Assembly: GCA_007026445.1 (NCBI GenBank)
Contig: VDMD01000009.1
Coordinates: 1-64,000, forward strand
Direction of reading: 5' to 3'
DNA: 64,000 bases
Source: Schizophyllum amplum
Lineage: Eukaryota; Basidiomycota; Agaricomycetes; Agaricales; Schizophyllaceae
Under the pieces are notes generated by a model, which saw nothing but the letters and a program-made list of their open reading frames with translations, was not told the origin of the DNA and did no database searches. The first letter of the stretch is position 1. Each line of letters starts with the position of its first letter. This document shows positions 3,262 to 57,166 of the stretch, piece after piece. Made by a program: the position numbers and the translations under genes.

Positions 3262-5267
3262 TAATGTGTGCGTATATGACACAAAGGTTGTATATACATA
3301 TTAGGCAACTGCAAGGCCCGTGAGAAAGGTGACGCAAGCGAGAGGGGCTACCTTCCCACGCTTATAGTGGGTGTTACTTGGAAAAGAGTCTCAACGTAAT
3401 CAGAGCTCGCTGACATGATTATGTACCGACAATCGTGGGCTGTAAGTACATGTTCTATCCACACGTAAGACAGAAATCAGGTCGATGACTCTATACTGAT
3501 AGCGCTAGCGTTACTGGCGTCCAGGCTATACCTGCAACAATATATACAGACTCAGAGACCGCGACAGACGAAGGACTCCTCTATACCATGTGCAAGGTCG
3601 TCGTACAAGGATAACAGGCCGACAAGAACTAGTAAACAGATGGGCATTGACGATCCAAATACTGTTGTAGATATCATAGGGTTGGGTGGCACGACTATTG
3701 AAAAAAATAGTGTCGAATACACCTGGTAGGTAGAACATGCGCTACTAATATATCCTTCAACATCGCGGCCGGACTCCCTCGTGATGACCCCTGCGCAACG
3801 CCAATGACAGAAGAAGCGCTCGAAGGCAAAGGTGAGCCTACGAAAGACAAGGGAGCGCCAGCGACGGATGAGGAGACGCTCAGAGATACTAGTAACACTG
3901 TCACTGGCGCTTATTCTCCAGTTAGCCCGAGCAGCAACGAATCAGCCAAATTGATGGGACGTCGACGATGGACCGGGGAAGCAGCGTAAAGCGGTTTTGA
4001 AGAGAGTGTATACGAAGGGGCGGAGGAGGACCTTCTTGGGGGATCGAGGGGCAACGCAGTGGTCAACGACGTTCGCATAAGTGAAGTTCTTCGACCTTGG
4101 GTGAGCGGACATCGGATAGACGATGTCAGCGAAGTAGGACGCTATAGCGCAAGTCGGAACTGATGGGGCGAACGCGACGAGAGGACTTCAAGAAGTGATT
4201 GTCTCACGTCATGCACGTAGTGACGAAAGTGCGAGCGTGGGTGCCTGGTCCTCGATAGTCGGACTCAAGGGGAGAGAGCGCTCGAGCTCGACGTCGGGAG
4301 GAAAGAGGCGCAGCCAGCATAATTCCGAGTGATCAAAGTGATGGCGGCGTCGTTCCGGGGGGCTCGATAGTTCGACGGAGGGCCACTGCATGCTGTCGGA
4401 GGTGACAATGATCGGGATCTAAGCGTATACACGGTCAACATGACGCTCGCTTGCTGCATCGGCAAACGCACCTGAGGTTTACGTATCTTGAGGTTCTCCT
4501 TCTGCTCGACCTGGCCACGCGACGGGCTCCTCAGGGTCCAAGCATGCTGAGAAGGGAAAAAGCGCAATCGGAGTCCCAGAAACGCACAGGGGTAGAGTAA
4601 ACTTGAGGGCGACTTGGTAATGGCAATCCTGGCTTCAAGACGACGATACACGATATGAGCTCGGAGGACCTGGCGCTTGACGTAGGTTCGGATACCAGGC
4701 GCCCAGTCTTGTATTCTGTCCGAGCTGGAGGGTCGAGAAAGGAACTGGCAGGAGTGAGGCAGGCGGAGGTCGAGACGACTCGCTGATGAACGCAGGAGAC
4801 AAGAAGCGGCCCGGCGGAAACGAATCGTCGGCATAATCCGGGGGTCAGACCACGCCCGATCGCGTGATTTGGAGGCTGAATCCTGCCCGCGCCTCAGAGA
4901 TTCGTTTTCGTAGCTGCAGAGTCGGGCAGAAGGGCTGCAGAAGGGTCATAAATCCTTTGCAAAAATACGCAAACGCACCTGCTTCCAATATCCTTCGTCC
5001 CAGGCTCAGGCAAAGACATCGGCGCCAGTCCGCGCCGATTCCGCGCGCTATGAGTATCTCGGCCCATGTCCAGGAAGCACGGGCAGCTTCAAACACAACA
5101 CGACGCGTAATCCTCAGCAAATTCATGCGTACTCTGGCAGAGGAATAAGGTACTACTTCTCTGGGCGCGAGAAGATTCACAGCGCACGCAACTTCGTCGC
5201 GTAGGGCAAGACAGCTCACTATGCATCCGACAGCCAGCATCGTCTTCCACGCAGTCTTGAGCACCTT

Positions 5268-5766
5268 GTGAGTCCAAGGGTTTTCCGAAGTTGGTCGATG
5301 CCATGTTCACTGAAGCTGACAGGGTACAGAGCATAGGCGCATCCGCCCACCCTTACAGGGAGTTGCTGCATCAAGCCCAGTCTCGCTGTCGCGTGCGTAT
5401 AGTTTAATCTTATGATGTGCTATAGACTGACCTACCTATGCAGGAATGCATATCCGCGAGCCGCCTGGTGCGTTATTCCGCTTGCATTGGCGCGCTGCAG
5501 CATAGGCCGTTAAGCGTAGGCTGTGAGTCCATAAGCCTGTACCGTTTATTTCCATGCATGTGGAAGACGGCTACTCACCTGGAAGCTCGCCCAATGAGAG
5601 CGCTTCACGCAATTACGACGACATTCATCGGGTGATGACGGTCACTGGTCAAGTCGCGTCTGTCGCTTCAGTATCCGATATATCTGCTCGGCACCTGCCG
5701 ACGAACATATCGTGGCCCGTCTGTACGTCCCGTTATTTTGCTTTTCTTTTAACTGACATCATGCAG
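5268..5766 (+). other. Conserved upstream segment with intron-like signals (HMG1 unit)
   Basis: Four intervals have good fungal splice signals: 5268-5322, 5393-5443, 5523-5585 and 5723-5766 (GTGAGT, GTGCGT, GTGAGT and GTACGT donors; CTGAC branch-like strings; AG ends). Equivalent signals in the same order occur upstream of HMG2 (22.6-23.0 kb), HMG3 (28.8-29.3 kb) and HMG4 (37.0-37.5 kb), on the strand of each HMG gene. Joining the exons leaves stops in every frame I tried, so this is a decayed gene or a spliced non-coding or leader transcript. One exon (5444-5522) keeps 26 aligned codons with HMG4 (for example HRPLSVG against HRLLSVN). Confidence 0.5.
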
Positions 5767-5839
5767 GCCATCGCGGAGCACTGACGGCTCGATTTTTGTG
5801 GTCGCTAGCCCGTAGAATGGAGCGCAACATTCTGAGCGG

Positions 5840-6024
5840 CGCGCGCACGAGGTGGACCCATAACGACCCACAAACAATTGCGATCACATGCGCGCGCAAC
5901 ACGAGGATGTGGCCACAGAGGGTGGGAACTTTCCTCGGGCACTGGCGCATTTTTTCTTCAGCTCAGCCGCGACCACCATCGACGCTCGACATCTTCGCTC
6001 GGACACCCATCCAGCCGACTCGTC
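5840..6024 (+). promoter_or_regulatory. Conserved HMG 5' leader/promoter block (HMG1)
   Basis: Contains ACCCATAACGACCCACAAAC followed by AATTGCG and, about 50 bp later, GGTGGGAACTTTCCTCGG. Both strings recur before HMG3 (28553-28740) and HMG4 (36711-36890) and, diverged, before HMG2 (about 22420-22510). The DNA is conserved although the frames differ between copies, so this is regulatory or untranslated rather than coding. That supports starting the protein at 6025. Confidence 0.7.
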
Positions 6025-7884
6025 ATGTCTAATTCTGCATCCCCTGCCACGGAGGAAGAGTACATCAAGCGTCCATCGAATTCATGGATACTATTTGGCC
6101 GCGAAATGCGACAGAACGAAGAATATAAAGGGAAACCGACGCGAGAAGTCAGTAAGTTGATATCGGACACTTGGAGGGACTTGCATCCCGACGAGTTGAT
6201 GATATGGCGAAGGAAGGCCGAGTGGGCGAAGCTGGAGCACGAAGAGAAGCACCCCGGCTACAAATACCAACCCCAAAGCAAGGCGAAGAGGGCGCAGAAG
6301 GCCGCAGAGGCAGCGGCGGTCAAGAAGAGCCAGAAGATGGCAGGCCCCAACGCCGAGACCACCCGCCCTCGCAAGAAGAAGAAGACCGCCGCCGACGCCT
6401 CCATGGCCTCCGTCGCGTCCACTGCCACCGCATCCGATGCGTACGACATGGCGTCGGTTACGGGCCCCCAGATCAAGAGCACCCGCCCTCGCGAGATCGC
6501 CACCGACGCCTCCATGGCTTCTGTCGCATCCACCACCGCCGCCGCCTCCGATGCGTACGACGCATACTACATGGCGCCGTACGCAGGCCCCCCGATCAAG
6601 AGCAGCCGCCCGCGTAAGAGGAAGACGATCGCCACCGACGTCTCCATGGCGTCCATCGCGTCGATCACACCAAGCGCCGCCTACAAGTCGTACAACATGG
6701 CGCCGAGCGCAGGCCGCCAGACTAAGGGCCTTCCCCCGCGCAAGACGACGGCGCTGTCTGCCGACGCCTCCATGGCGTCTGTCGCGTCCACCATGCCGAG
6801 CGCTGCCTCCTTCGATTGGTTTAACACGGCGTCGCCTTTCTATGCTGGCCCGCTCCCGATGCGCTCGCCTTCGACGGCGCCATCGAGTCTACTGCCCACG
6901 CCTCCTCCGCCTGCGGGCAACCACCCTGTCGATTATGCGACCCACCAGCAAACGCTGCCCAGCGACAACGATCGCTGCGTGATCAAAGCAGATGACCGCG
7001 AGGACCCACTGCGCTACGAGAGATACTTGCTGGTGTGTGCAACATTCTAATCTCTCCCTAAATCTTGCTCACACCTTATATAGCATCAGTGGAAGACAAT
7101 GGGCAAAGCGTCAGGGCTCAAGGCAGAGAATGGTATCCTTTATGACTCGGACTCGATCGGCGCGGCCTCGCATGCAGACAATGAAGGTCTGAGCACCGCC
7201 GGCGCCTTTGATGGCTTGAATGGTCAAGGCGTCGTTCATAACGCCGGTCATGTTGCCACCACGCCCGACTGGTTCCGTCGCAACGCACAGCTCCCCGATG
7301 CTGGGACCGGTGTCAGTGAATGGCGGAACACTGTCGGCGAGGCCTCCTCTACACATGATATGCCGACCTTCGACAATACGCGGGCTCAGCCGTCGGTGTT
7401 CTCTCAGGGTTCGGAGTATGGAACCGGCAGCGCGACCGGTAGCGAGTACGACATGTCCTTTAGGAACTCGCGCTCCAGTGGCGAGTACGACGCCGACGAC
7501 TACCAGTACTATTCGCACGCGCCATCTGACAACTTATCGTCTCGCTCAACGTCTATTCCCGACTTGACGGCTGCGTCGCGAACGCACAACACGGGTTATG
7601 CCTCGTATGGGCCCGAGTACGCCTCGACCAGTGGCTCGTCGAACGCTTCGTTCGTCTCCCAGGGCACCGACTACAACGGAACTCACAGTTATGGGTCTGG
7701 TGCGGGTCTTGGCGCTGACTTTGGCCCCAACTCTGGCCTCCGTCCCGGCTCCGAGCTCGACGCCAACTTCGATAGTGGTCTTAGTGTCGAGGTTTGGGAC
7801 TCGGAATATGTCAACCCGTTCGCGCCGACGCTGTCCCCTGCTCAGTGGCAGGGCGAGGGGTCTGGCGCGCACGACGCGCTGTGA
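6025..7884 (+). CDS. HMG-box (MATA_HMG type) transcription factor, HMG1
   Basis: Putative nuclear DNA-binding regulator. Two exons, 6025-7032 and 7084-7884, with a 51 bp phase-0 intron (GTGTGT..TATATAG), give 602 residues. The HMG box spans about residues 13-85 (YIKRPSN..WILF, then EEKHPGYKYQPQ). Four tandem ~40-residue modules follow (110-275), each with a basic RPRK-like patch, a (M)ASVAST core and a Tyr/Asp-rich tail. The C-terminal half is rich in S, G, Y, N and D and ends with SEYVNPFAPTLSPAQWQGEG, a motif kept in the paralogues. The box deviates from the family consensus (Trp in SNSWILF, LHPDELMIW) more than HMG3 does. The start was chosen because upstream in-frame sequence is conserved as DNA, not as protein. 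Confidence 0.88.
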
Positions 7885-8675
7885 AGGGCGCTCTCAACGA
7901 GCGCTCTTCAGTGAAGGATGCAAAGGACATCCTTCACGCGCGCGAGGAGGGAGAATAGGGTCAGTCGATTCTCTATCTATCATACGCAAGAGAAAAATGC
8001 TGATCAATCGCGTAGAATTGTGATGTAACGAACGATGTTTCGGAGTAGTACTTGTAGCGGCTGAGCCTTGATGCTCAGTAGCTGCTGCTGCTTCGGGCGC
8101 GCCAGGGGCGTGCAGCGCCAAGATGTTCGGTGTCAAGGCGGTCGGCAGCGATGAATGCGACATAAGACTCATCGACAATCGCATCGACGGTCAATGACTC
8201 AAGCCAGCTCTTTGCGACTCAGCGAAATTATCACTTTCGATGCTCACTCTTGCTCTCATACACGACAGAGCCAGACGAGGTTGCGCGCGAGGTGCACCGC
8301 CAATTGGCGGCAATCTCATTGCTCGGCGACGAATGCGAGCGAGTCGCAGCGGACGACGCAATGGTCAATACGGGCCCTCCGCGGCTGCGGACCGAGCAGA
8401 AGAGGACGCTCGCGCATCCGCAGTAAAAAAAAAGGAGTTGGTAACGCGGAACACCAGGCGTCGCATTGGGTTCGAGGCTACAAAGGCCACGATTTCGACA
8501 AGGGGCGTGTCGGCCGCGATGCGAGAGGAAGGGAGGAGGGAGAGGTGAAGAAGAGGTCAGCTCTTACGGGGAGCAAGGAAATTCGGTGAAGCGGAGACGG
8601 CCAGGAAACGGCGGTCTACGCTATGATAATGACGTATCTATGTAATGTCCTTCAATGCGATTCGGCTCAACTCTT
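7885..8675. repeat. HMG 3'-flank module, copy 2
   Basis: Follows the HMG1 stop directly. It begins with a GC-rich imperfect hairpin around 7888-7940 (GCGCTCTCAACGAGCGCTCT, then AAGGATGCAAAGGACATCCT) that could mark the transcript 3' end and is also present after HMG3 and HMG4. The rest matches 1-700, including the short frame ending in AHPQ and a stop at about 8423. No recognised gene. Confidence 0.6.
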
Positions 8676-8799
8676 TCAAGTTTGTTTTCTTCTCAGATGA
8701 CTTGAAGCTTGAGCAAGTATTGATAAGAGGGTGTTTTCTGGCAGAGGCTTCTTCGACGACAGCTTAAGAGTCAGCCGCGTCCAGCACACTACTTGTAAC

Positions 8800-8991
8800 G
8801 CGACCAGCAGCGTATCAGGAATGCTAGCGCGCTGGGCGTAGTACTTTTTGACGTGCGCGAGGGGAACGTGCTCGGCTGTGGCGCGGAATTCGGAATCGCG
8901 TCGTGGGAGCCAGGACGATGCGATACCGCAGCTGCAGCGATCCAACCCGGACTGGATTGAAGAGTGCGCGGGTGGTCGAAGTGCTAGACAT
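8800..8991 (-). pseudogene. Old yellow enzyme N-terminal fragment, copy 2
   Basis: Same fragment as 830-1015, with ATG at 8991. A 7 bp insertion (extra ATTCGGA-like bases near 8888) shifts the frame between the APTTRF and ATAEHVPL parts, so it is broken as well as truncated. Located within direct repeat copy 2. Confidence 0.8.
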
Positions 8992-9347
8992 CTGGTCGGG
9001 ATTCGGAATAGGCTTGAAGAAGGTGTAAGACTCGGACGAGTGAGGATGCTAAGAGACGACGGCCGAACGCGTATTTGTACCGCGCTAGGGCAGAGATATG
9101 ATCTACGCCAGTGTGTCGGAACATTGATGCGTAAGGCCGCGCATGGAGAGAACAATTTTGCTGATAAACGTCTGAGTCGCAAAAGAGGCATCAAAGGTAG
9201 CCGAGCGCTCAGATGAGAATAGCACATGAGGCGAGTGTACACTGTGAGATAATCCTGATACTACTTACTGCAACCCACCGATTCCTCAGAAGCGTCCTGG
9301 TTCCTCCGCTCCTTCGTTTGCTGCTTCGTCCATGATATACACTTGGC

Positions 9348-10155
9348 CTACTTCCTCAGCACAAACATCCAGCCATCGAAGCCCCTCCCATCGGCCGTTG
9401 GAACCGTCGTTGCCTCCGTCTCCTCGTCCGTCTCGAGGTACTTGAGGAGGTCGCGAGCGCCCGTGGTCCAGGTCTCAGTCTGCGCCTCGTCCGCGACGAG
9501 ACCGTTCTGGACGACGTTGTCGACGATCTGGGGAGGAAGGGTGAGATGTGGGCGGGTGCACAGTAAAATATGATCGGTGGCCAACTCACAATGACACCAC
9601 CGCTCTTCACGAGGCGCTTGCACTCCTTCATGTACTTGACGTTGTTGGCGATCTCTGCGTCGATGAAGGCGAAGTCGAAGGTGCCGTCGCCCTTGGTGGC
9701 GGCGAGGGAGTCCGCGGCGGGGCCAACGACGACCTCGACGCGGTCAGCAAGGTCGGCGTGCGCGAGGTTCTCGCGGGCGACCTATCAAGGCGTCAACTTC
9801 CAAAGAGGATATAGGGGGAATATGATAAAACACATACCTTTGCATGCTTCTCTGAAAGCTCGAAAGTCACCAACTTGCCGTCCTTCGGCAGCCCGCGCGC
9901 CATCCAAATTGTCGAGTACGCGCCCAGGGTACCGACCTCGATCACGCGCTTCGCACCCAGCGCGCGCACGAGGAGTTGCAGGTACTTTCCCTGCGCGGCG
10001 GATACGGCGATCTCGGGAAGCCCGTTCTTGTCTGCGTTGGCGAGAGCGAAGGTGAGCGCCTCGTCGGGCTCGCCGACGAGGAAACGGGCGTGGTAGGCCT
10101 CGCTAGCGGCCCATGTGTCGAAGTTGGCATGCTCGCCGGGCCAGAAGATCGTCAT
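9348..10155 (-). CDS. Class I O-methyltransferase (family 3), copy 2
   Basis: Exons 10155-9838, 9781-9590 and 9527-9348, with introns 9837-9782 and 9589-9528, encode 229 residues. All motifs of copy 1 are intact (VIEVGTLGAY, FIDAE, IVDNV). This copy forms the left half of the 1.1 kb palindrome and is transcribed away from copy 3, the two starts being about 600 bp apart. Sequence differences from the other copies are few and mostly silent, so it should be a working enzyme if expressed. Confidence 0.9.
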
Positions 10156-11577
10156 TGTGGATGAAGAGTGAGGGCGAGTAAAGGTATTGGCGTATGAGAT
10201 GTGAGTAGGAGAGTTAAGAAGACCATGGCCACAACAATGCGCTGCTATTTATCTGAGAAAGTAAGAGGACGCGCAGGCTCTCGGCAGGTATGTAGAAGAC
10301 GTAGACGCTGCGACTTCTCGGCCAGCCGCGAGGGTTGCGCGTCAGTGCCGCTAGTTGCGGGATATCCATAGTCTCCCAAGGCAGAGTCCGATCGAGTAGA
10401 CTGTAGCAAACGCGCCCCTGATATCGGCTGCGCGGATGTGCTATGTACACGTGATGCTTCCCACGATTCGGATTTGGCACATCCGCGCAGCCGATATCAG
10501 GGGCGCGTTTGCTACAGTCTACTCGATCGGACTCTGCCTTGGGAGACTATGGATATCCCGCAACTAGCGGCACTGACGCGCAACCCTCGCGGCTGGCCGA
10601 GAAGTCGCAGCGTCTACGTCTTCTACATACCTGCCGAGAGCTTGCGTGTGCTCGTACTTTCTCAGATAAATAGCAACGCATCGTTGTGGCCATAATCTTA
10701 ACTCTCCTACTCACATCTCACTCACCAATACCTTTACTCGTCCTCACCCTTCACCCACAATGACGATCTTTTGGCCCGGCGAGCATGCTAACTTCGACAC
10801 ATGGGCCGCTAGCGAGGCCTACCACGCCCGTTTCCTCGTCGGCGAGCCCGACGAGGCGCTCACCTTCGCTCTTGCCAACGCGGACAAGAATGGACTTCCC
10901 GAGATCGCCGTATCCGCCGGGCAGGGAAAGTACCTGCAACTCCTCGTGCGCGCGCTGGGTGCGAAGCGCGTGATCGAGGTCGGTACCCTGGGCGCGTACT
11001 CGACAATCTGGATGGCGCGCGGGCTGCCAAAGGACGGCAAGTTGGTGACTTTCGAGCTTTCGGAGAAGCATGCTAGGGTATGTGTTTTATCATATTCCCC
11101 CTATATCCTCTTTGGAAGTTGACGCCCCAATAGGTCGCTCGCGAGAACCTCGCGCACGCCGACCTCGCTGACCGCGTCGAGGTCGTCGTTGGCCCCGCCG
11201 CGGACTCCCTCGCCGCCACCGAGGGCAACGGCACCTTCGACTTCGCCTTCATCGACGCAGAGATCGCCAACAACGTCAAGTACATGAAGGAGTGCAAGCG
11301 CCTCGTGAAGAGCGGTGGTGTCATTGTGAGTTGGCCACTGATCATATTTTACTGTGCACCCGCCCACATCTCACATTAAACTCACCCTTCCTCCCCAGAT
11401 CGTCGACAACGTCGTTCAGAACGGTCTCGTCGCGGACGAGGCGCAGACTGAGACCTGGACCACGGGCGCTCGCGACCTGCTCAAGTACCTCGAGAAGGAT
11501 GAGGAGACGGAGGCGACGACGGTTCCCACGGCGGATGGGAGGGGCTTCGATGGCTGGATGTTTGTGCTGAGGAAGTA
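9349..11577. repeat. 1.1 kb palindrome with 35 bp spacer
   Basis: Arms 9349-10441 and 10477-11577 are near-perfect reverse complements around a 35 bp non-repeated centre (10442-10476). The arms cover one full O-methyltransferase gene each plus about 300 bp of promoter. Similarity ends exactly at the gene stop codons: beyond them the left side continues into the OYE fragment and the right side into spacer DNA like 2580-2850. Such a structure can extrude as a hairpin and is prone to rearrangement and to assembly errors. Confidence 0.9.
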
Positions 11578-11578
11578 G
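10760..11578 (+). CDS. Class I O-methyltransferase (family 3), copy 3
   Basis: Exons 10760-11077, 11134-11325 and 11399-11578, with introns 11078-11133 and 11326-11398, encode 229 residues. Motifs are as in copy 1, and the last codon of exon 1 is Arg rather than Lys. The second intron matches the 73 bp version of copy 4 (it keeps an extra ATTAAACTCA-type segment), while copies 1 and 2 have a 62 bp version. Copy 3 is therefore not simply a mirror image of copy 2 along its whole length. Divergently paired with copy 2. Confidence 0.9.
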
Positions 11579-12450
11579 CATTACCCGCGCAGCCGATATC
11601 GGGGGCGCGTTTGCTACCAGACTAGGATATTCATAGCGGGACATCACCGCGCGATTTGTCGATTGTGGCAACGGGAAGCTGCAGCAGTGGTGCGATGAAT
11701 GTCGTACGTTCCATCATGTGTCTGGTCATGTTTGAAGAGACGGCCGGGAGAGGGCCGTCGAAGAACGCTAGCGGCGCGATTCAGAGCAGTTGTGCGCTGT
11801 GACAATCACGGCGTCCCTTGGCTACAGGTAAGGACGGTCAAGATGGCATACGCACCATGCCGGCAGGGCACCTTCGCAGTCTTGAGTCTTCCACTCTTGA
11901 CCGTCAGTCTGACTGTCGCGTCGGACTGCAACCAAGTTCAACCTTGACAATCATAGGTTCAGCAGAGCAAGAGAGCTGATAAAAGGACAGCGTACCCTCC
12001 CAAACGACCGTAGTCTGCTTTTGTAGTTGTGCAGGTCCATGTTTGTCGCGGACTGTCGGGCCTCATGTGATAGTCACGTGGACAGTGTTGAACTTCGTCC
12101 GACTTCTTGAAGCGAAGTTGAAGCTGGAGTCTGTACCCGTACTTCAAAAGCGGCCCTCGGTCGGATAGATGAGGCACGCTCATACGCCGGGCAAGTGCGA
12201 GCAAGCACGATGCCATGAATAGCGACGGGGGGCTGAGGTTCAGAGAGAAATAAAGCCGGATTTGTGGAATTGGGATAGAGCTTGATGTACATATGAGGGT
12301 CGGACGAGGTAGAGAACAGATATGCGAAGACTAGGGTCTATGCGGATAGAGCAGAAGTGAGCGCGGCAAGACGGGGAGAGGGTGAAGATGGTAATTGTGG
12401 GAATAGTGAAGTAGAAAGTAGTGGTTTTGATTGACGGAGGCACTTCAACG
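11579..12450. other. Spacer after O-methyltransferase copy 3
   Basis: 11580-11900 matches 2440-2840 in direct orientation (the GCCGATATCGGGGGCGCGTT string, then the CATCATGTG..GGTCATGTTTG stretch). It is spacer sequence joined here directly to the palindrome end. 11900-12450 has no recognisable gene, only a few short frames without family similarity. Confidence 0.6.
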
Positions 12451-12559
12451 GAAGAGCCCGGCTGTTAGAGTCGCTGCTCCTGGCCAGAGGATTACAAAGT
12501 TGCCGAGAACCGGATGATACTTACGATGGGATGATACCTGATGGTTACTTATGAGTAGG

Positions 12560-12790
12560 CAGAATGGTTGAAGGGAACATACAGGAAACATACCGAGAAG
12601 ACTTGATGAGTATGACGCAGGCATGGGGAAAGAGCAGCAACCAGGGGAAACGACGTATGACGACGTTGAAGCCTGGGAAGGCCGAGCGCGGACTTGGAAA
12701 GCCACGTAAAACGTTCCCCAGCGGGCGCATGCCCAGCGCGTCGAAGTCAGCAATCCTGTCGTGTAAGAAGCGAAGGACGTCAGATCGATG
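12560..12790 (-). other. Possible exon of an unrecognised gene
   Basis: One minus-strand frame from about 12790 to 12590 is open and protein-like: VLRFLHDRIADFDALGM, then PLGNVLRGFPSPRSAFPG and FPWLLLFPHACVILIK. It is followed by a good donor (CG|GTATGT). The neighbouring sequence offers no clear continuation, and I do not recognise a family. It could be a lone exon, a gene fragment, or chance. Confidence 0.25.
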
Positions 12791-13556
12791 ACTACTGATG
12801 GGAACACGTCGAGGAATCTGGTGCAGGAGACGTGAGAGTCGGGGGGAGAGCGATTTGTAGTGTGGGGTTTGCCGGGGGCTGGCCGGGGGAGAGGTTGCGG
12901 GATGGAAGCGCTCGCCAAGGTCGCGTCCTTGACGGCATCAATCCGGAGCAAGCTCAGGCTGTCCGCGCCGCTGTGCCGCAGCGTTGCACGACGTGATGCA
13001 TGCATGACGCACGGCGCACTGAGCGTAAGAATGGCCTTCGGACGACCCCGAATGTGCGCGACTCACGTCCTCGCCACTGCTGGCAACGACGGCGACGCGC
13101 TCGGCGTCGCCCACGCCGTCGCGCGCGCTTCCCCCCGCCTCTAGGACCCGCCGGCGGCGCGGAGAAGAACAAGGGCCCATGGTGACGTCACGAGTGGCGT
13201 GGGAAGAAACGGCATGGAGATTGTGGAGATCACTTTGACACGCCCGAGAAGCCGCGGCCTTATTTTCTTTGCGCACGCCCTGACTGGCGACACCTTTTGA
13301 CACCGTCCAGCACGCCGCGCACGACGGCGGCGACATCTACACGACGTTCAACACGACGGCGACACCAACATAAGCGCAGCGCCGAGCCCGCGAGGAGGCC
13401 CGCACCGCACACACGCACGCATCACAGACGCGCCAGGCGCTAATAAAACACGATCCAATAGCAACGCATACTGCTGCAGTACACGTCGGTGCGTTCCCCG
13501 CGTTTTTTATCCCCATCGTCGCGCTCAACGGCGCGCAGCACACAGCATCCCCGACT
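12791..13556. promoter_or_regulatory. Upstream region of the RRM gene
   Basis: GC-rich DNA with no convincing gene. The last 250 bp before the ATG contain an AT-rich TTTTTTAT and a CAATAG string and presumably the promoter and 5' leader of the RRM-protein gene. Short frames here look like shadows. Confidence 0.4.
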
Positions 13557-16500
13557 ATGGCGACCCCGCCGCCACTCGTTGCACCGAAGCCAGTGCTGCC
13601 CCCAGACGCCTCGTCCGCTGTCATCGACCATGTCGGAGGCATGGAAGACGACCCTAGCGGCCGGTCCGCGCAGCCCAGCGTCGCCCCGCCATCCGCGAAC
13701 CTCATCCCGCCGCCGATGACCGAGCCCCTGCCGCAACCGGCGTCCCCGCCAGGCGAGCCACCCACGAAGAACAGGCTGCAGCCGTCCTTCCTCCACGCCT
13801 CGTCCTCGCCCGTCGTCCCCAAGCTGCGCGGCCCAGACAGGATCCCGGGGATAGTGATGTCGTCGGGTGCGTGATGGATTTCGTCGTGGGCAGAGCGTGT
13901 ATGTTGACCGGTAATCACAGAAGACGACGACGAGCGGAGGATGGATGCACAGATGGGAGGAGGGCCGGTAGGCGGGTCCCTATCAAACGCGACCATTGAG
14001 GCTGTCATCCAAGCGGCCACCCAGAGCCCTAGCCCACATCCTGGAATGAGGTGAGCGTCGATCTCCTCATTGTATGCGCTGGGTCTGCTTTGCACGCGCC
14101 TTTCATCTTGCATCTATCTTCTCCCTCCCTTGTCTCGTCCTGCATACCTGTACGCACGTCCGCGACGCCTCTCCGGCGTGTCGTAGAGTCTAGACTCTCC
14201 ACATGTTATGCCCCCAATGGCGATCTTGCTTTGGCAGGCGTCGTGCATGCACCTTATGACCCCTTCGAAGCCTCCGCATCTCCTATTCATCCATCCACCC
14301 AATGCATGCGTCCGCGTCACATCCATAGAGCCGCGTCTGGAAGCGTAGACCATCTTCGACTCCTTTGATCGTCAGGCCAATCACAACGGTCGGATGTAAC
14401 GATCACTATAATCTAACGCGCATCTCATACAGCTCGTACACCCCGCGCAACACATACTCACCTCTCCCTGGTCAATCCTTCTCGCCGAACCCGACAGCGG
14501 CACCGTTCTCGCCCGCGCCGGGCAACAGCGCGTTCGGAGCTGGCGGTGAGTATATGCGTCCGTATATGCACGTTTTCCTTCGTATATGCGCCTTTTCCTT
14601 CGTATATGCGCGACATCTTTCTTGAGAGCGCTTTTCGGATCGTATATGCGCGCGTTACCTTTTAAAGGTTCGCCCAACCATCCATATATGCGCACAAGTC
14701 CTTCGCATAATTGCCTCACCTTGTCCATATCCAACTCTCTAACATCTTCGTTGCCATCTACTACATCCGCGCCTCCTCGATTGGGATCTCTGTTACCGGA
14801 CCTCATTCACGTTGTCTTCGCACCTCTCACACCTTGACTTCGCACCTCTTTCACCATCATCCACTCCACCCAGGCCTACTCTCCCACTTGCACCCGCTGA
14901 TACCCACCCGCAGGAGGCTACTCACCGGCACCCCGCGGTGGTCCGAACTTCCCGGACGGCCTTCGTGCGACAGGGTTCGGCGGTAGTGGCTACGGTGCTG
15001 GCGGGAGCAGCTATGGAGGCGGCAGCAACCTCGGCGGAGGCAGTAACCTTGGCGGCGGGGCATTTGCGGGCAACGGTGCTGGTGCATTCGCAGGCAACGG
15101 TGCTGGTGCTTTCGCTGGCAACGGTGCTGGCGCGTTTGCAGGCAACAGTGCTGGCGCGTTCGCAGGCAACGGTGCTGGCGCGTTTGCAGGCAACGGTGCT
15201 GGCGCGTTTGCAGGCAACGGTGCCGGCACGTTCGGGGGCAGCGACCGGCCGACGAGCCTTACGGACGGGATGCGCGCGCCGAGGGATACGCGGACGCAGT
15301 TGTTTGTAGGGAATGTGCGTGGCTTTTTTCGTCACGGTTTAAGGATATGAGCTGACGGATTCTTTTTCGTGACCTTTAACATATTGGTTGCGGTCGCTGC
15401 CTACTCATGAATTCCTTCGCAAACGCGCATGCATGCATGTTTGGCCGGTGTTCTCTTCTATGCAATGACTCGTCGTGCGGTCTCCGTCTGTATACCACAT
15501 TGCTTGCACTGGACTCATGACTTGGCGTCTCTCTACTCTATCATTCTTCCCTCCACCAGCTTCCCTACCGCGTCCGCTGGCAAGACCTCAAGGATCTGTT
15601 CCGCAAGGCGGGCACGGTGCTCCGCGCGGACGTCAGCCTCGGACCAGACGGGCGGAGTCGAGGATACGGCACGGCATTGCTAGCCACCGGGGAAGACGCG
15701 GGACGGGCGATTGACATGTTTAATGGGTGAGCAGCTTGCTTGATGGAATGATACTGCTGGACTGTAGACTCATGGGAACCTCTAGATACTCCTGGCAGAC
15801 GCGCGTCCTCGAAGTTCGCCTTGACCGTATGGGCAGCACGGATGCGGCTGCAGGAGGATATGGAGGAGCTATAGTGGGGCCCGGAGGCCTTGGCGCGCCT
15901 GGTGGACTGGGTGCAGCTGCTGGAGGACTTGGGGTTGGAGGACTTGGTGCTGCAGGCGCGGGAGGGCTCGGTGGCCTAGGTGCGGGTATTGGCGGAGGTG
16001 CGTTTTGGATGTTGTATGACGCGAGAAGTGTGAGCTGATGAGACTATGGTTTTAGTCGGTGGTCTGGGCGGATATGGCGCGCTGCATGCTGGCTTGGGCG
16101 ATGTGAGGCCGGGTAGCAGCGAGGGCGGAACGGGACCGGGGAGGAGTTTGTTCGTCGGGAATGTGAGCTCGATGGCAGCGAACAATCTGTCCTGTGTCAG
16201 TCACTGACTTCAGCCTCTAGCTACCCTTCCATGTGCAGTGGCAAGATCTCAAGGACCTCTTTCGATCTTCGGGAGGGACTATTTTGCGCGCGGACGTTGC
16301 GCTGGGAGCAGATGGACGATCTCGCGGATTTGGTACGGTTGTGTTCGCGACGGAGGCGGATGCAGAGAGGGCAAGGGCTTTGTTCGACGGGTGAGTGGGA
16401 GCTCGGTGTTTTATTCCCTTTGGGATGTTTCCACATGGGGATAGTATCATTCCCCTTGCGGATAACCAGCGTCTCCTTGCGAATGACTAGCGGCTCCTCG

Positions 16501-19500
16501 TCAATGACTTGCATATCCTCCTCGATGGTATACTTACATCTCCCTGCAGATACGAGTTCAACGGTCGTCAGCTCAAGGTGCACTACGACAAGTTCTCGGC
16601 GAGCGCTGGGATGCTTGCAGTCCCAGGCGCGCAGGGTACATATGGCGACAACTTCGGCAGAGGGGGAGATAACTTTGGTCGCAGCGGACGCGGCATGGGA
16701 CTTGGCGATGGATATGGAGGTGGAGGACTAGGAGGATCTCTGGGTGGTGCCACAGGACTCGGCGGAGGTGCAGGATATGGCGGATTTGGCAGCCCGCACC
16801 TCGCGGGCTTAGGAGGACTCGGCGGATCCGGATTGACCGACCTCGGCTACGACGCGTTCAGCGGACTGCTGGAGGACGAAAATGCCTTCCGGTACGGCGT
16901 CGGCAGCGGCAGCGGCACCACGTCTGCAAGCGCTTCACGTCCGACATCGAGTGGTGTGGGTGTGGGAGGACTGGGTGGCTTGGGTGCGTCGCGGCTGGCG
17001 TCCCTGGGCCATGCGGCTTCACTCAATGCATCGCCTGTGACATCTTTGGGAACGTCTCCGACGCTTGGATCGGTAGCAACACTGGGTGGGACGCTCAGCC
17101 AGTCGACGTCGCCGCAGCTTGCGTCGGGCGCGTTTGAGAGCCGCGCTACCTTGGAGGCTCTTCGTCCGGGGAGTTACGACAGTGCTCTGCGGCCTAGTAC
17201 ACTCGGCGCCATGGGTCGGCTGGATGGTCTATCGTCGAGATTGGGGAGCCTGGACAACGCGCCATTCAGCTCGGATCTACTCGATCGCGCGGGGTTGTAC
17301 GAAGGTTTCCCGATGTCGGTCTCGCCCAACCGGGGTGCCTTCGATACCACGATATCTCAAGCGGCGTCCCCGCGCCTCTCGCAGGCGACGTCGCCGAGGC
17401 TGTCTTCGCAAGCCGCGTCACCAAGATTGCCCTCGCTGACCGCCTCGCCACGACCGTCGACCAGTACCGCAGCTTCTCAGGCGACTCGATCCCAGGCTGC
17501 GTCCCCTCAGTTGACCACGTCGCGCTTGCCCGCATCGCAGCCCGTCACGCGCCTGCCGAGCTTCGCGGATGCCGTCGTAGGCAAAGCGGAGGGCGGCGCC
17601 AGTGTCAAGCGGAGCTCGTCTGATGCGCACCGTCGTGGTGCGGCCCCACCGTCCGTCGCGAGGACGTTGGGCTCGGAAGTACCGTTGGAAGCGGGTCGCT
17701 CAATGAGCTTTGCGGGAATGGGCACGAAGAGTGGGAGCATGGGAGCAGGCCTGGGTGGCGGGGACGACAGCGCGTTGGACAGCGCGACATCGAGCCGAGC
17801 GGAGAGCCCGACGGGCTTTCACTCTCTACCAGCGCCTGTATTTCCGACGTTGTCGAGGCAGTCGAAGGGTGCGCGCTCGTTGGGTGCTGTGCCCAAGGTA
17901 TCGGTATGTGGTCCCTTCTTCATCTGTACCAGCCAGCTGACGAATGCGTGCAGAACCAGGAAGGTGGGGATGCACCATCGAAGGACTTCGTGGACCAGGT
18001 GCTGGCTGCGAGCTTGGCTGGCTCGCGACTCAATCCTTCGTCCGCGAGGCGGAGGCCAGGCCCGGTACCGGTGTTATCTGGTGGTGGGTCCGGAGGGAAG
18101 AGCGCCGGCAGTGCAAGCCCAACGCCGAGCTCGCGCGGGTCAAGCCAGGGAGACGATGCGCGGAGCACACCACCGACTAGTCGCTCGACGTCAGAGGAAA
18201 GCAAGCCGGGGTCATCGTCGCAGCAGCAGCAACAGCAGCAGCAGTCATGGCAGCGTGGCCCTCTCCGTCGTGGTCCGCAGCAGCAGCAAGGCCAGCAAGG
18301 CATGCGGCGTCCTATCCAGAACCCCCATCATCCTGGTCCCATCTCCCTCCCTCCGTTTTCGCCAATGTACGCGGCGCCGTACATGCCAATGGTGGGCATG
18401 TCGCCGATGCCGGCGATGACACCGCACGGAATGCCGCCCATTACGCCGAGCATGCCTCCGTTTACGTTCTTGCCGCCGATGGGGAGCCCGGCGGGGCATC
18501 CCATGCAGCAGCACTATCATATGGCCAACCAGTTGTTGACGCCGCCGGTATCGCCTGGAGTGCACGACGGGAGCCCGCGGACGCCGCAGCAGCATCCAGC
18601 GCAGCAACAGCAACAGCAGCAACAACAGCAGCAGCAGCAGATGCAGCAGCAGGCGCAACAACATGCGCAACAGCAGGCGCATCATCAGCAGCAGCATGCT
18701 CAGCAGCAAGCCCAGCAGCACGCGCAACAGCAAGCCCAGCAACAGCAACAGCAACATGCCCAGCAGCAGCAGCAGCCTCAGCATCCGCCGCAATACCCGT
18801 ATGCGCTACCGCCGCACATGTTGCCATTCTCTCCGGGGCTTGCGCTCAGCCCAGGCGGCTACGGTATGGGCATCAACCCCGCTGTCGGGGCACCCGTACA
18901 CCTGCCGCCGCGCTCGCCTGGCGCTTTCGTTCCTGCTCACTCTCCTGGAGGTTTTTTCGCACCTGTGCCGCCGTTCGCGGCGCCTCCTCCGGGTAGCCCT
19001 GGCGCATATCCGTACCCCGTCTCGCCGATGGGCTACGTCCCGAGCCCTGGTGGGTTCATACCAGCGAGCCCAGGGTACTGGATGCCGATGATGATGCCTG
19101 CGCAGCAGCAACCTCAGCAGCAGCAGCAGCAGCCTGCTCCTCAACAGCAGCCTCCACAGGAGCCGAAGGGCTATTTCGACGTCCTGCCGCAGCAGCAGAC
19201 CTGGCCGAACTACCCGCGACGGAACAGTGGTGACAGCGGCGGCGCGGGCGACCGTACGCCAGGCGCGAGCACCAATGGAATCGGGCAGGGAGTGTACAAC
19301 GAGATCATGAAGAGCGGGACGGAGATTGGACGCGAGGCGCAGCCGTCAAACATTCGGCGGCAGAGCGCAGATGGGGAGAATGATGCGGTCGTGGAGGACG
19401 AGGACGGTGCGTCGATGGCGGGGAACGACCATCGTTCGTACTCGCACTCGGGTGAGACACGGCCGAACATGGAAGAAGGTGAAGGACGACCGGGGTCGCG

Positions 19501-19504
19501 GTAG
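13557..19504 (+). CDS. Two-RRM, Gly- and Gln-rich RNA-binding protein
   Basis: Ten exons: 13557-13866, 13921-14050, 14433-14545, 14914-15314, 15560-15726, 15786-15997, 16056-16162, 16221-16390, 16550-17903 and 17954-19504. All junctions are GT..AG and phases agree, giving 1504 residues. RRM1 is about residues 313-387 (QLFVGN, LPYRVRWQDLKDLFRKAG, RSRGYGTALLAT). RRM2 is about 474-550 (RSLFVGN, LPFHVQWQDLKDLF, SRGFGTVVFA). The closest known type is the Gbp2/Hrb1/hnRNP-M-like mRNA-binding proteins. The linkers are Gly-rich; about residues 235-292 are seven-odd copies of an eight-residue GNGAGAFA repeat. The C-terminal third is low complexity with Pro- and Gln-rich tracts (CAG runs near 18220, 18600-18780 and 19100). 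Introns 2 and 3 are unusually long (382 and 368 bp). It probably acts in mRNA processing or export. Single copy, although it lies inside the duplicated region. Confidence 0.88.
14550..14695. repeat. Repeated CGTATATGCGC motif inside intron 3
   Basis: Intron 3 of the RRM gene contains six to seven copies of (CG)TATATGCG(C/T), at about 14552, 14561, 14581, 14599, 14641 and 14686, separated by 9-45 bp of CTTTTCCTT-like pyrimidine. No other intron of this gene has it. Confidence 0.8.
15055..15240 (+). repeat. 24 bp in-frame minisatellite in the RRM gene
   Basis: About seven tandem 24 bp units (core GCGTTTGCAGGCAACGGTGC) encode AFAGNGAG repeats within exon 4. Units are nearly identical at the DNA level, so copy number is likely to vary between strains. 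Confidence 0.9.
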
Positions 19505-20790
19505 ATGGAGGACGGTGGTCGTCTGTATGGATGTGGTATACGGGACTGCGTCAGGTATGGAATGGCTTGTGTTTCGAGTTTTGTTACTCTGCTTGTCGGA
19601 CGGGCGCCTAGAGCTCGGCGATGGCTTCGTTTGTTGTCAGTGTAATGTCCGCGTCCTTGCATATAGTTGTCACATACAGTAATTAGTACATGGGCGGTGG
19701 TTCATACATACTTTTCGCACACATCTACAGTCTATCTATCTCACAATATATATGTTCTCTTCTGTCCTCTGATCGCTGACTGTACTCGCTTGCACTGTTC
19801 GCGCGAGTCGAGCTCTCCGCTGAGCGGACTCCGGTGAGTAGGCGTAAAGCACGCCTTCAATGCATGAACGACAAGAGGAGGACCCGGCCCAGGGACTGGC
19901 GGTGACAGTCGATGATAACCAGACGCTCCCTCGGACATCGGCGGCCAGACTCGAAGGAGACACATCCTAGAGGCGACCGATCGAGGACATCTAGACTGAA
20001 CATAGAGATATACAAATCGCATTCAAGTTGTTATTAACACATCGACAGCAGAGACTGCCGTCCGCCTGATCGACTTTGCAGACAGCCACAACATAAGTAT
20101 ATAGTAGCGATACAACCGTGACATGAGTGAACGAGTACACAGCAGTCGTGAACTCAACTTCTCTCCCAGATTTTCTCGCCTCACCCCTCCCTCGCGCGCC
20201 GCCGTCCGACTCAGACTCATATCTTCATAACTTCTTCGTAACCTCGTCGAGATCGTGGTCTTGCATCGCGAGCCACTCTGGTGTTCCGCGTTGCCCTCCA
20301 TGTCTCCTGTGGATGCACGTGTATATTCCACAGGCTCGGAGGACCCGTATTAGCCGTTGCTTCGTCCGTTGACGCTCCCTCGCATGTACCGGCGTGCGGG
20401 TGAAAGCACTCTCAATTTGCAGAGCGCTCCCAGGCAGCGTCGGGCTCTGATCATGTTTGCGAGCGGAAACATGCGTCGAGGGGGTGACTTTTGAGAGGAA
20501 TCGCGGAGACAGCTTGACGACAGGGCCGGCAGACGGTCGAAGGGATTATCGACGAGTAACTTGACGCCGGTTATGCCATCTTGGCGCTGCGGACCCGAAG
20601 CAGCAGCAGCGATTGAGCATCACCCAGCCGCTATGTTTACTCCTGGGCAACATCATACGATACATCACAATCCTACACGAGTCGTCAGCATTATTCTCTC
20701 GACTGGGATAGAATCAATCGACTGACCTTGCCGTATGCGTGAAGGATGTCTCTGCATCCTTCACTGAAGAGCGTTCGTTGCGAACACCCT
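19505..20790. other. Spacer with diverged HMG 3'-flank module
   Basis: 19505-20030 is the RRM gene 3' end and unassigned DNA. 20030-20790 resembles the HMG 3'-flank module in reverse orientation but is strongly diverged; for example the reverse strand keeps NTGPPS and HPQ remnants near 20300-20380. It precedes the decayed HMG2, as expected for an older copy of the unit. No intact gene is seen. Confidence 0.5.
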
Positions 20791-26701: not shown

Positions 26702-28552
26702 TCACAGCGCGCCGTGAGCGCCCGGACCCTCGCCCTGCCACTGAGCAGGGGACAGCGTCGGCGCGAGCGGGTTGACATACTCCGATTCCCAGTCTTCGAC
26801 AATAACACCATCATCGCAGTTGAAGTCGAGTTTGGAGCTGGGACGGAAACCAGACTCGGCGCCAAAGTCAGCGCCAAGACCCGCACCAGTCCCATAACCG
26901 TGAGTTCCGTTGTAGTCGGTGCCCTGGGAGACGAACGAAGCGTTCGACGAGCCACTGGTCGAGGCGTACTCGGGCCCATACGAGGCATAACCCGTGTCGT
27001 GCGTTCGCGACGCAGCCGTCATGTCGGGAATAGACGTTGAGCGAGACGACAAGTTGTCGGATGGCGCGTGCGAATAGTACTGGTAGTCGCCGGCCTCGCA
27101 CTCGCACGATTGCGGAAATCCAGTCGACATGTCGTAGCCGTTCCCGGCCGCGCTGCCGGTTCCATACGCCGGGTTCTGCTCGAACACCGACGGCTGAGCC
27201 GATCCATTGTCCAACGACGGCACGTCATGTGTAGAGGAGGCCTCGCCGACACTGTTCCGCCATTCACTGACACCGGTCCTAGCGTCAGGGAGCTCTGTGT
27301 TGGGACCAAACCAGTCGGGCGCGATGACGGCATTGCCGGCGTTATGAACGACACCTTGACCATTCAAGCCATCAAAGGCGCCGGCGGTGCTCAGACCACC
27401 ATTGTCTGCATGCGCAGCTGCGCCGGTCGAGCCCAAGTGATAAAGGATACCATTCTTCGCCTCAAGCCCTGACGATTTGCCCATTGTGTGCAACCGATGC
27501 TATATAAGGCGTGAGCAAGACTGAGGGAGAGATTAGAATGTTGCACACACCAGCAAGTATCTCTCGTAGCGCAGTGGGTCCTCGCGGTCAGCCGCTTCGC
27601 GATCGTTGTCGCTGGGCAGCGTTTGCTGGTGGATCGCATAATCGACAGGGTGGTTGCCCGCAGGCGGAGGAGGCGTGGGCAGTAGACTCGATGGCGCCGT
27701 CGAAGGCGAGCGCATCGGGAGCGGGCCGGCATAGAAAGGCGACGTCGTATTATACCACTCGAAGGAGGCAGCGCTCGGCATGGTGGGCGCGACAGACGCC
27801 ATGGAGGCGTCGGCAGACAGCGTTCGAGTCGTCTTGCGCAGGGGAAGGCCCTTAGTCTGGCGGCCTGCGCTCGGCGCCATGTCGTACGACTGGTAGGCGG
27901 CGCTCGGTGTGGTCGACGCGATATAGGCCATGGAGACGTCGTCGGCGATCGTCTTCCTCTTACGCGGGCGGCTGCTCTTGATCGGGGGGCCTGTGTACGG
28001 CGCCATGTAGTATGCGTCGTACGCATCGGAGGCGGCGGCGGCGGTGGATGCGACAGAAGCCATAGAGGCGTCGGTGGCGATCTCGCGAGGGCGCGTGCTC
28101 TTGATTGGGGGGCCCGTAATCGACGCCATGTCGTACGCATCGGATGCGGCGGCGGTGGGCGCGACGGAAGGCATGGAGGCGTCGGCGGCGGTCTTCTTCT
28201 TCTTGCGAGGGCGGGTGGTCTCGGCGTTGGGGCCTGCACTCTTCTCGCTCTCTTTCATCGCCGCTGTCTCTGCGGCCTTCTGCGCCCTCTTCGCCTTGCT
28301 TTGGGGTTGGTATTTGTAGCCGGGGTGCTTCTCTTCGTGCTCCAGCTTCTCCCACTCGGCCTTCCTTCGCCACTCCTTCTTCTCCTTGGGAGGCAACATC
28401 TTCCATGCGCGCGATATCAACCCACTGATTTCTCGCGTCGGCTTGCCTTTATATTCTTCATTCTTTCGCGTTTCGCTGCGGAAAAGGAAGAAGCAATTCG
28501 ACGGCCGCCTGATGTGCTCCTCCTCCGTGGCAGGGGATGCAGAATTAGACAT
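26702..28552 (-). CDS. HMG-box (MATA_HMG type) transcription factor, HMG3
   Basis: Inverted partner of HMG1. Exons 28552-27551 and 27499-26702 with a 51 bp intron (27550-27500) give 599 residues. The HMG box (about residues 13-85) is closer to the family consensus: HIRRPSNCFFLFRSE, WKMLPPKEKKEWRRKAE. It is followed by four ~40-residue RPRK/ASVAST modules, a S/G/Y-rich half and the C-terminal ESEYVNPLAPTLSPAQWQGE. Flanking DNA is almost identical to that of HMG1, yet 21 of about 74 box residues differ. It belongs to the HMG1/3/4 subgroup. Predicted nuclear regulator; targets unknown. Confidence 0.88.
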
Positions 28553-32200: not shown

Positions 32201-32848
32201 CCGGCATGGTGCGTATGCCATCTTGACCATCCTTACCTCTCCTTACCTGTAGCCAAGGGACGCCGTGATTGTCACAGCGGCACAACTGCTCTGCATTGCG
32301 CCGCTAGCGTTCGTCGACGGCCCTCTCCCAGCCCTCTCCTCAAACATTTACATGACCAGACGCACATGAGGGTACGTACGACACTCAATTATACTTCATC
32401 GCACCACTGCTGCAGCTTCCCGTTGCCACGACCCACAACTCGCGCGGTGATGTCCTGCTATGGATTACCCCACAATTAGCGGCATGGACGCGCAACCCTC
32501 GCGGCTGGCCGAGAAGTCGCCGCCTCTCTACGCCTTCCACAGACCTGCCGCATAGCACATCCGCGCAGCCGATATCGGGGGCGCGTTTGCTACGAGACGT
32601 CCGATTACTCGATCGGACTCTGCCTTGGGAGACTATGGATATCCCGCAACTAGCGGCATCGACGCGCAACCCTCGCGGTTGGCCGAGAAGTCTCAGCGTC
32701 TACGTCTTCTACATACCTGCCGAGAGCTTGCGTGTGCTCGTACTTTCTCAGATAAATAGCAACGCATCGTTGTGGCCATGATCTTTTTAACTCTCCCACT
32801 CACATCTCACTCACCAATACCTTTACTCGCCCTCACCCTTCATCCACA

Positions 32849-35114: not shown

Positions 35115-36710
35115 TCACAGCGCGTCGTGCGCGCCAGACCCCTCGCCCTGCCACTGCGTAGCAGACGACGTCGGCGCGAACGAGTTGACGGAGTCCGAGT
35201 TCCAATCCCCGATACCGGGACCACGGTTGAAGTTGGGGTCGAAGTCAGAGTCGGGACGGAGGCCAAAGTTGGCGCCACGACCCCCGCGAGACCCAAGTCC
35301 ATTCAAGCCATTGTAGTCGGCGTTCTGGGAGGGGAACGGAGCGTTCGACGCCTGACTACTTGAGGAGGCGTGCTCGGGGCCATACGAGGCGTACCCCATG
35401 TTGTTTGTTGGGTATCCCGGGCCATCGTCGCTGACCGCATTAGCCCAACGCGATGCAGCCGTCAAGTCGCGCATAGAAGTCGAGCGAGACGAAAAGTTGC
35501 CGGACGACATGCGCGGGTAGTCCTGGTAGTGGTCGGGCTCGTACCGGCCAGAACGCGAGTTCCCAAGGGACGTGTTGTAACCATTCCCGGCCGCGCTGCC
35601 GGCTCCATACTCCGAGTCATTAGAGAACATTGACGGCTGAGCCCGTCCATTGTCGAACATCGGCGTGCCGTGCGTAGAGTAGGACCTGCCCACGCTGTTG
35701 ACCCATTCATCGACACTGGTCCTAGCGTTAGGGAGCTCCGCATTGTGACCGAATGAGTCAGGTGCGTTCGCGGCGGTGCTCGGACCACCATTGTAGGCAT
35801 GCGCAGCTGCGCCGGTGAAGTCCGAGGGACAAAGAGGTCCATTGTGAACATTGAATCCGAAAGCTCCGCCCATTGTCTGCCCGTAGCCCTATATAAAACG
35901 TGAGCAAAATCGCGGAAGAAGTCAGGGTGCAGCACACACCATGTCATATCCACGGTAGTTGAGCCCGTTCTCGCGGTTAGTCACGCCGCGATCGTCCCCG
36001 CTGAGACGAGCTTGCTGCTGGTCTGCGAGCGACTGCTGAACGATCGGAGGGTTCAGCCAATCATTGCCCAAAGGCGGAGGGGTAACGAGCTGACTAGACG
36101 GCGCGGTCGAAGTCGACCGCGGGTCGGTAAACGTCGGCGGGGCCATGACACGCAGACTCTCCGACGCAGCGACGCTCTGCGCGGTGGACACGATCGATGC
36201 CATAGAGATGTCAGCGGACAGCGTCGTCGTTTTGCGAGTGCGGGAGCCCTTAACTTTGGGGCCTCCGTTCGCGTTCAGCCTCTTCTTCTTCTCCAGCCTG
36301 GCAGCCGCCGCCACCGCGTCCTGGCGCCTTTTCTCCTCCGTCTTCGCCACTTTCGCTGCCTTCCTGGCGGCATTCTCCTGCGCCTTCAACGCCGCCGCCG
36401 CCTGCCGCGCCTGTTTATCGGCGGCCTTCTGCGCATTTCTGTCTGCAACCTGGGCCGCCGTTGAAGGTTGGTACTTGTAATCGGGGTTCTGACGAGCGTG
36501 CTCCTCCTTCTCCAGCGCGGCCTTTATCTCCCAGGGTGCCTTCTCCTCGGCAGACATTGCTGCCCATCGCCTTGATAGCAGCCCGCTGACTTCGCAATTT
36601 GGCCGGCCGCGATACTCGGTTTCTTGCGTGTGTGAGCGCCACAGAATAAAGCAGTTCGAGGGGCGCCGGATTTTGTTCGAGGTAGGGGTTTTACGGTTAG
36701 CCTTAGCCAT
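35115..36710 (-). CDS. HMG-box (MATA_HMG type) transcription factor, HMG4
   Basis: Exons 36710-35940 and 35888-35115 with a 51 bp intron (35939-35889) give 514 residues. The HMG box is about residues 11-85 (IRRPSNCFILWRSHTQ, WAAMSAEEKAPWEIKAA, NPDYKYQPS). It is followed by an Ala/Lys-rich, probably helical stretch (AADKQARQAAAALKAQ..). There is a single RTRK..SADISMASIVST module instead of the four in HMG1/3, then a S/G/Y/N-rich half ending SVNSFAP..SATQWQGEGSGAHDAL. The leader block and upstream signals are shared with HMG1 and HMG3. The start MAKANRK was chosen because upstream sequence is conserved only as DNA. Confidence 0.87.
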
Positions 36711-57062: not shown

Positions 57063-57166
57063 AGCGGCGGCGCCACTGAATGAAACATATTACTTCTACG
57101 ATCGCGAGACGTCTCTCATGTATGGTATGGTGTACATTATCTGTGTAAGTATCGTCTGCGGGAATA

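Follow-up and report, generated by a model that had tools for sequence, protein, structure and literature searches.

Patchy gene conversion as the probable origin of a divergence island over the HMG box of two Schizophyllum amplum paralogues

HMG1 and HMG3, two HMG-box genes from one array in Schizophyllum amplum, are probably old duplicates that gene conversion has homogenised patchwise while sparing the box. The differences between them pile up in an island that comprises HMG1 codons 12–68 and thereby most of the HMG box (6058..6228, plus strand; partner HMG3 28519-28349). In this island 40 of 171 bases differ, which is beyond chance and is in accord with the original prediction of about 39 differences in about 170 bases. 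We infer gene conversion as the molecular step from the pattern of differences in one strain and one assembly.

The locus and its genes

The window, which is the whole stretch of DNA analysed (64 kb), lies at the start of a 967-kb contig (C299) of an assembly of 49.65 Mb in 309 contigs, representing one strain. It contains six HMG genes, HMG1 on the plus strand and HMG2 to HMG6 on the minus strand, which form an array of HMG-box genes with copies in direct (tandem) and in inverted order. Every one of the six genes has a second exon, about which the original prediction was silent. The intron has a length of 51–54 bp, starts with GTGYGT, ends with TATATAG (TGTATAG in HMG2) and joins the two frames in phase 0 in all six genes.

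In HMG1, exon 1 (6025..7032, plus strand) is an open frame that ends at GTGTGT in phase 0. The predicted intron of 51 bp (7033..7083, GTGTGT...TATATAG) has boundaries that are alike across HMG1 to HMG6, and exon 2 (7084..7884) is in frame after predicted splicing; the protein has 602 amino acids. The right-arm partner HMG3 (26702..28552, minus strand; exons 28552-27551 and 27499-26702) encodes 599 residues, of which residues 52–599 are identical to a public S. amplum protein (P0001), and the public model has the same exon junction as predicted here. Coding indels between HMG1 and HMG3 are 3 and 9 bases long. HMG4 (35115..36710, minus strand) is the third paralogue and was used as outgroup in the sequence comparisons.

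In the public models of HMG3 (P0001) and HMG4 (P0002) the start methionine lies inside the HMG box, and neither protein has an HMG Pfam domain in its listing; both frames are open further, to an upstream ATG. HMG1 is absent among the protein-search matches listed (best 7991 and 7990 candidates by shared words, candidates being limited by length). The public annotation thus masks the pattern described here, since the HMG3 and HMG4 models begin within the box.

Several other features of the array and its surroundings should be mentioned. HMG2 (20791-22530; position of the start codon not fixed) looks like a decayed copy: the first half of the box is missing, the second half scores 20.9 bits, which is under the Pfam cut-off, and there is a stop in exon 2, while the intron has been retained along with some of the upstream region. 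A copy of HMG6 is found on another contig (L013, C236:262216-265449) with about 87% DNA identity across 1.2 kb, and its exon 2 frame stops after 99 codons. Related short-chain dehydrogenase frames are located near HMG genes at 24352-25017 (by Pfam) and 49825-50490 (by eye); their pairing hints at array growth by segments larger than one gene. A repeat of about 1.1 kb occurs in the flanks (1379-2476, 10477-11578 and 32555-33666) and has relatives of 86–88% identity on C277 and C244. A piece of it of about 32 bp recurs elsewhere; on C223 and C212 it forms facing pairs spaced by about 1.1 kb, an arrangement to be expected of the terminal inverted repeats of a mobile element. Finally, there is an inverted repeat of about 400 bp (57165-57560 and 57835-58234, 97.8% identical), close to which lies a fungal protein kinase-like frame (59077-60159).

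Divergence along the two arms

Within the island the 40 differences are spread over the three codon positions (13, 13 and 14) and affect 28 codons, by which 21 of 57 residues are changed; the corresponding hand counts had been 27 and 20. The upstream region together with the first 33 coding bases is quiet, as had been claimed, but the number of differences in 5780-6057 is two rather than one. These are at 5826 and at 6057, which is coding base 33, and there is none in the 230 bases of 5827-6056. The quiet region includes the proximal upstream region (5838..6024, plus strand), where HMG1 and HMG3 are identical and HMG4 is alike, with 19 sites private to HMG4 in 175 columns compared (21 gapped columns excluded). 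It belongs to a low-divergence tract (4344..6052, plus strand) with about 2% differences (37 in 1708 aligned bases, three HMM segments pooled). On the other side of the island, the 82 bases following 6227 are without a difference and the next one is at 6310. The earlier count of about one difference in about 100 bp after the block therefore holds for these 82 bases but not beyond, there being 8 differences in 6308-6343.

The description of the two genes as otherwise near-identical could not be upheld: exon 2 differs by about 14%, and more divergent patches are found at 4022-4343 and from 7057 on. In a hidden Markov model of the two arms (segments from the 3-state model, BIC 4111; the 2-state model being slightly better, 4105), low-divergence tracts are interrupted by divergent patches, the larger of which are 4022-4343, the box, and stretches within 7057-7499 and within 7719-8464. 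The patch at 4022..4343 (plus strand, 3-state model) is a second divergence island, which lies outside the HMG genes. It aligns with its partner over 251 of 324 bases at 71% identity, a divergence no lower than that of the box, and it has no match in the assembly besides its partner. An even spread of divergence along the gene, which the original prediction had named as speaking against an island, is contradicted by the software alignment with dN/dS per segment.

Further 3′ the closest partner of HMG1 changes. For example, sites private to one of the three genes in exon 2 number 18 for HMG1, 19 for HMG3 and 28 for HMG4 in codons 401–465, versus 1, 19 and 26 in codons 541–602. Binned informative sites mostly group HMG1 with HMG3 until about 7840, except at 7400-7500, and then mostly with HMG4 up to 8500. 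Judged by such sites, the HMG1 3′ end with its downstream flank (7840..10445, plus strand) is nearer to the HMG4 side than to HMG3, and 7586-10445 matches 35404-32551 at 92.8%. Segments of HMG1 thus have different closest paralogues, and because of the partner switch near 7840 HMG1 looks recombinant. Of this recombinant 3′ end there was no mention in the original prediction.

Silent and replacement divergence

Synonymous changes had been said to be raised inside the block, and this is borne out by the dN and dS values between HMG1 and HMG3 (Nei-Gojobori). dS is 0.39 in the box and 0.073 in codons 69–336, silent divergence of the box being about five-fold that of the remaining exon 1 (silent counts, rounded, box versus rest of exon 1: Fisher p = 0.0005); dN is 0.256 and 0.049, respectively. 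In exon 2, dS is 0.18 and dN is 0.144. The resulting dN/dS ratios are 0.66 for the box (bootstrap 0.31–1.58), 0.67 for codons 69–336 and 0.72 for exon 2, all with wide intervals. Replacement changes are therefore not over-represented in the island, where dN/dS is like that of the flanks within these wide intervals, and equal ratios inside and outside indicate a block that is older or faster at all sites rather than one with an excess of replacements only. By the same comparison (0.66 versus 0.67), a swap of DNA-binding specificity is not demonstrated, although selection for new binding may have acted all the same. In codons 401–480 of exon 2 dS is 0.30 and thus near the box value, which fits with one old background.

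GC3 is 0.61 in the HMG1 box and 0.72 in the HMG3 box as compared with 0.81 and 0.80 in the respective remaining exon 1. A low GC3 of the box would be given by GC-biased conversion of the flanks. This was not relied on, however, since the HMG4 box has a small dip and those of HMG5 and HMG6 have none, and since GC3 is low also in exon 2.

HMG4 as third sequence

In exon 1, HMG4 is more distant from HMG1 and HMG3 than these are from each other. This allows a three-way comparison, in which sites that differ between HMG1 and HMG3 are set against sites that are private to HMG4 (gapped columns excluded, sites treated as independent). The two numbers are 5 versus 51 in the 325 bases upstream, 1 versus 20 in codons 1–11, 40 versus 47 in the box and 24 versus 244 in codons 69–336 (183 of which are alignable to HMG4). 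The box thus differs from the upstream 325 bp plus the other exon 1 (40:47 versus 30:315) by an odds ratio of 8.9 (p = 2e-14). Over nine segments the share of HMG1-HMG3 differences among variable sites is uneven with a chi-square of 131 at 8 degrees of freedom (p = 2e-24, independence assumed). When the 665 variable sites were permuted, the densest 30-site window was reached in none of 5000 shuffles and the longest run of sites with HMG1 equal to HMG3 in 2 of 5000; for the emptiest window p was 0.023.

Since HMG4 differs from both genes at many of the sites where HMG1 and HMG3 agree, constraint alone does not account for the quiet flanks. Silent divergence is uneven beyond local constraint, some variation being seen also in control pairs. 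With silent and replacement divergence both jumping at the block and with HMG4 speaking against constraint, the claim that recombination was involved, rather than selection alone, is supported.

Relatives of the HMG1 box

DNA searches with the HMG1 gene and with its box (best candidates scored) revealed no donor for this box among the paralogues in the assembly. Beside itself, the HMG1 box DNA finds HMG3 alone, at 83%. In protein searches (best candidates scored) the boxes of HMG1 and HMG3 are each other's best match at 74%, followed in order of E-value by HMG4 with 42% to the HMG1 box and 51% to the HMG3 box. A box tree was made from 15 of the 17 assembly matches, L016 and L018 being omitted because they nearly duplicate L015 and L017; of the 34 other Pfam matches in the assembly, most are outside this tree. 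In it HMG1 and HMG3 are sisters (support 90/78), HMG4 is next (98/97), and the branch of HMG1 has a length of 0.44 and that of HMG3 of zero. Private changes in the box amount to 17 in HMG1 (13 replacement, 4 silent) versus 5 in HMG3 (p = 0.017, 18 three-way sites set aside). This misfits divergence at equal rates and calls for extra change on the HMG1 branch.

Matches beyond the assembly are few. Among the best candidates, limited by length, no protein match assigned by name to another species extends over more than 35% of the query. The protein searches yielded S. amplum proteins, the P0006 frame (which is HMG6 exon 2), and partial matches of 13–35% of the query from other fungi or unnamed sources.

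The HMG1 box as DNA-binding domain

The HMG box of HMG1 (PF00505; 6064..6264, plus strand; residues 14–80) is recognised by Pfam with E = 8e-11 and a score of 42.7 bits, that of HMG3 with 47.7 bits; both are above the cut-off of 25.4. An AlphaFold model of HMG1 residues 1–95, built on five aligned window sequences, has a mean pLDDT of 82 and predicts helices at residues 20–29, 39–52 and 55–75, i.e., the three helices of an HMG box. The nearest solved structures to this model are SOX11, SRY and SOX2.

Some properties differ between the boxes. The net charge is +3 in HMG1, +8 in HMG3, +3 in HMG4 and +1 in HMG6. At one position in helix 1 there is a glycine in HMG1 where 14 of the 15 boxes, i.e., all others, have R (compared by eye). 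Two putative wedge positions are occupied by W and I in HMG1 and by F and F in HMG3; we take them to correspond to the wedge residues with which SOX and SRY boxes kink DNA. Judged from sequence, these features would fit a changed specificity as well as a partial decay of the HMG1 box.

Patchy gene conversion and its alternatives

The pattern is probably best explained as follows. HMG1 and HMG3 would be old duplicates in the tandem and inverted HMG-box array, and exchange between copies, by gene conversion and perhaps by crossing over too, would have overwritten 1.7 kb upstream together with codons 1–11, as well as most of the other exon 1. The box would have been spared and would retain the older divergence, with changes that lean to the HMG1 branch. 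Further 3′, HMG1 may have exchanged with the HMG4 side instead. The original prediction had left it open whether the box cassette was replaced or its surroundings were homogenised. Homogenised surroundings fit better, given that comparable divergence is seen in other stretches and that the 3′ end of HMG1 is HMG4-like. It should be noted, however, that there are observations against this explanation. The pair HMG5-HMG6, which is not obviously homogenised, also varies in dS (0.88 in the box, 0.67 in the other exon 1 and 0.51 in exon 2; box versus exon 2, p = 0.13), and so does HMG6 versus its C236 copy, where dS is 0.26 over the box, 0.08 immediately behind it and 0.43 in the initial portion of exon 2. 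In the latter pair the box has a dN of 0.07 and a dN/dS of 0.26, which is nominally lower than the 0.66 of HMG1-HMG3.

If the box was spared, this may have been due to selection for two different boxes or to mismatches that hindered conversion. The second island at 4022-4343, which is no less divergent and lies outside the HMG genes, speaks for the neutral view. A more elaborate form of the selective view would be a diversification by modules, in which conversion keeps the promoter, the 3′ exon and the downstream flank common while selection keeps the box-bearing exon 1 apart; each copy would then read different DNA under the same control. To this we attach only a small likelihood. It can be read from HMG4, the proximal upstream region of which is alike and the dS of which to HMG3 and HMG1 is 1.40 and 1.91 in the box but 0.47 and 0.46 in exon 2 (Fisher p = 0.001 and 0.0001, respectively). 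However, the other exon 1 of HMG4 is with a dS of 1.3–1.5 as divergent as its box, and the contrast is therefore not box-specific; values above 1 are near saturation, and the control pair HMG5-HMG6 has its box and exon 2 ranked likewise, though not significantly. If selection keeps the box apart, the array is a natural test of transcription factor paralogues escaping conversion at the DNA-binding step. On the plain reading, the trees, dN/dS values and ages of HMG genes hinge on the segment used.

That diversifying selection acted on just the box and no recombination took place is very improbable: 21 of 57 residues are changed, some of them at putative wedge positions, but dS is up together with dN, and dN/dS is the same in the box and in codons 69–336. 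A recent duplication with subsequent replacement of the HMG1 box from a third paralogue, now lost or unassembled, has somewhat better prospects but is still rather unlikely. The private changes do lean to HMG1 (17 versus 5), and the contig begins inside the array, its base 1 matching sequence just downstream of HMG4, so that copies may be missing to the left. Yet there is no other close box in the assembly (best candidates scored), the 15-box tree joins the HMG1 and HMG3 boxes as sisters, and the divergent patches outside the box would each require an import of their own. Replacement as a cassette is thus not supported, the only close relative found in the assembly being the partner box itself. 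More credible than a replacement, but still on the unlikely side, is that the HMG1 box is losing its function while conversion keeps much else alike, a process that may act together with patchy conversion. In favour of decay are the Pfam score below that of HMG3 (42.7 versus 47.7 bits), the lower net charge (+3 versus +8), the glycine in helix 1 and the ratio of 13 replacement to 4 silent private changes. Against it are the intact frame of HMG1, the HMG fold, which is predicted to be retained, and the net charges of HMG4 and HMG6, which are low also.

The pattern could also be an artefact of assembly, the arms being two nuclear haplotypes of a hypervariable locus that were misjoined, or the block being chimeric. 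The window is indeed at the very start of its contig, and other contigs hold near-identical stretches in pairs. But each frame runs open for about 600 codons, the coding indels being 3 and 9 bases long, and the arms differ far more than two haplotig-like contig pairs (0.4 and 0.8%, 3.2 kb each). The arms are separated by about 17.6 kb, of which 8.6 kb were searched (11900-20500); this stretch is without a second copy in the assembly and gave only 18 short partial matches, which together with the low divergence of the contig pairs makes it improbable that the arms are alleles. We consider an artefact improbable.

Comparison with known systems

Among the literature matches listed, by titles and the beginnings of abstracts, there is no description of this array or of a conversion island in an HMG box. 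By sequence (HMG3) and by predicted fold (HMG1) the best matches of the boxes are those of the SOX/SRY type. The relationship is distant, with 25–32% identity in the best 20 fold matches, and unlike in SOX/SRY-type proteins the box of HMG1 and HMG3 is followed by a long tail and a second exon, relatives of which were found in S. amplum only (best candidates).

For patchy conversion between duplicated transcription factor genes, the mammalian homeobox genes TPRX1 and TPRX2 provide an example, which is the opposite in one respect: the 5′ part, which contains the DNA-binding homeodomain, is reported to undergo conversion more often than the sequence downstream of it (PMC8208926). Alike is also the mosaic of high and low divergence between the paralogues GOT1p1 and GOT1p2 of Tigriopus californicus despite conversion, these being enzyme genes that were studied in several populations (PMC3728101). 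A further close case is that of the primate opsins, duplicates that conversion keeps similar and homogenised while a local peak of divergence persists over a functional segment (PMC3924837). For the opsins it is known which sites are functional, and their history is borne out by orthologues, whereas that of HMG1 and HMG3 is read from paralogues; and unlike in the opsins, the quiet flanks of HMG1 and HMG3 take in coding sequence and the peak is without a rise in dN/dS. Divergence islands amid conversion are thus known from opsins and other duplicates, and HMG1 and HMG3 probably present one in another gene family.
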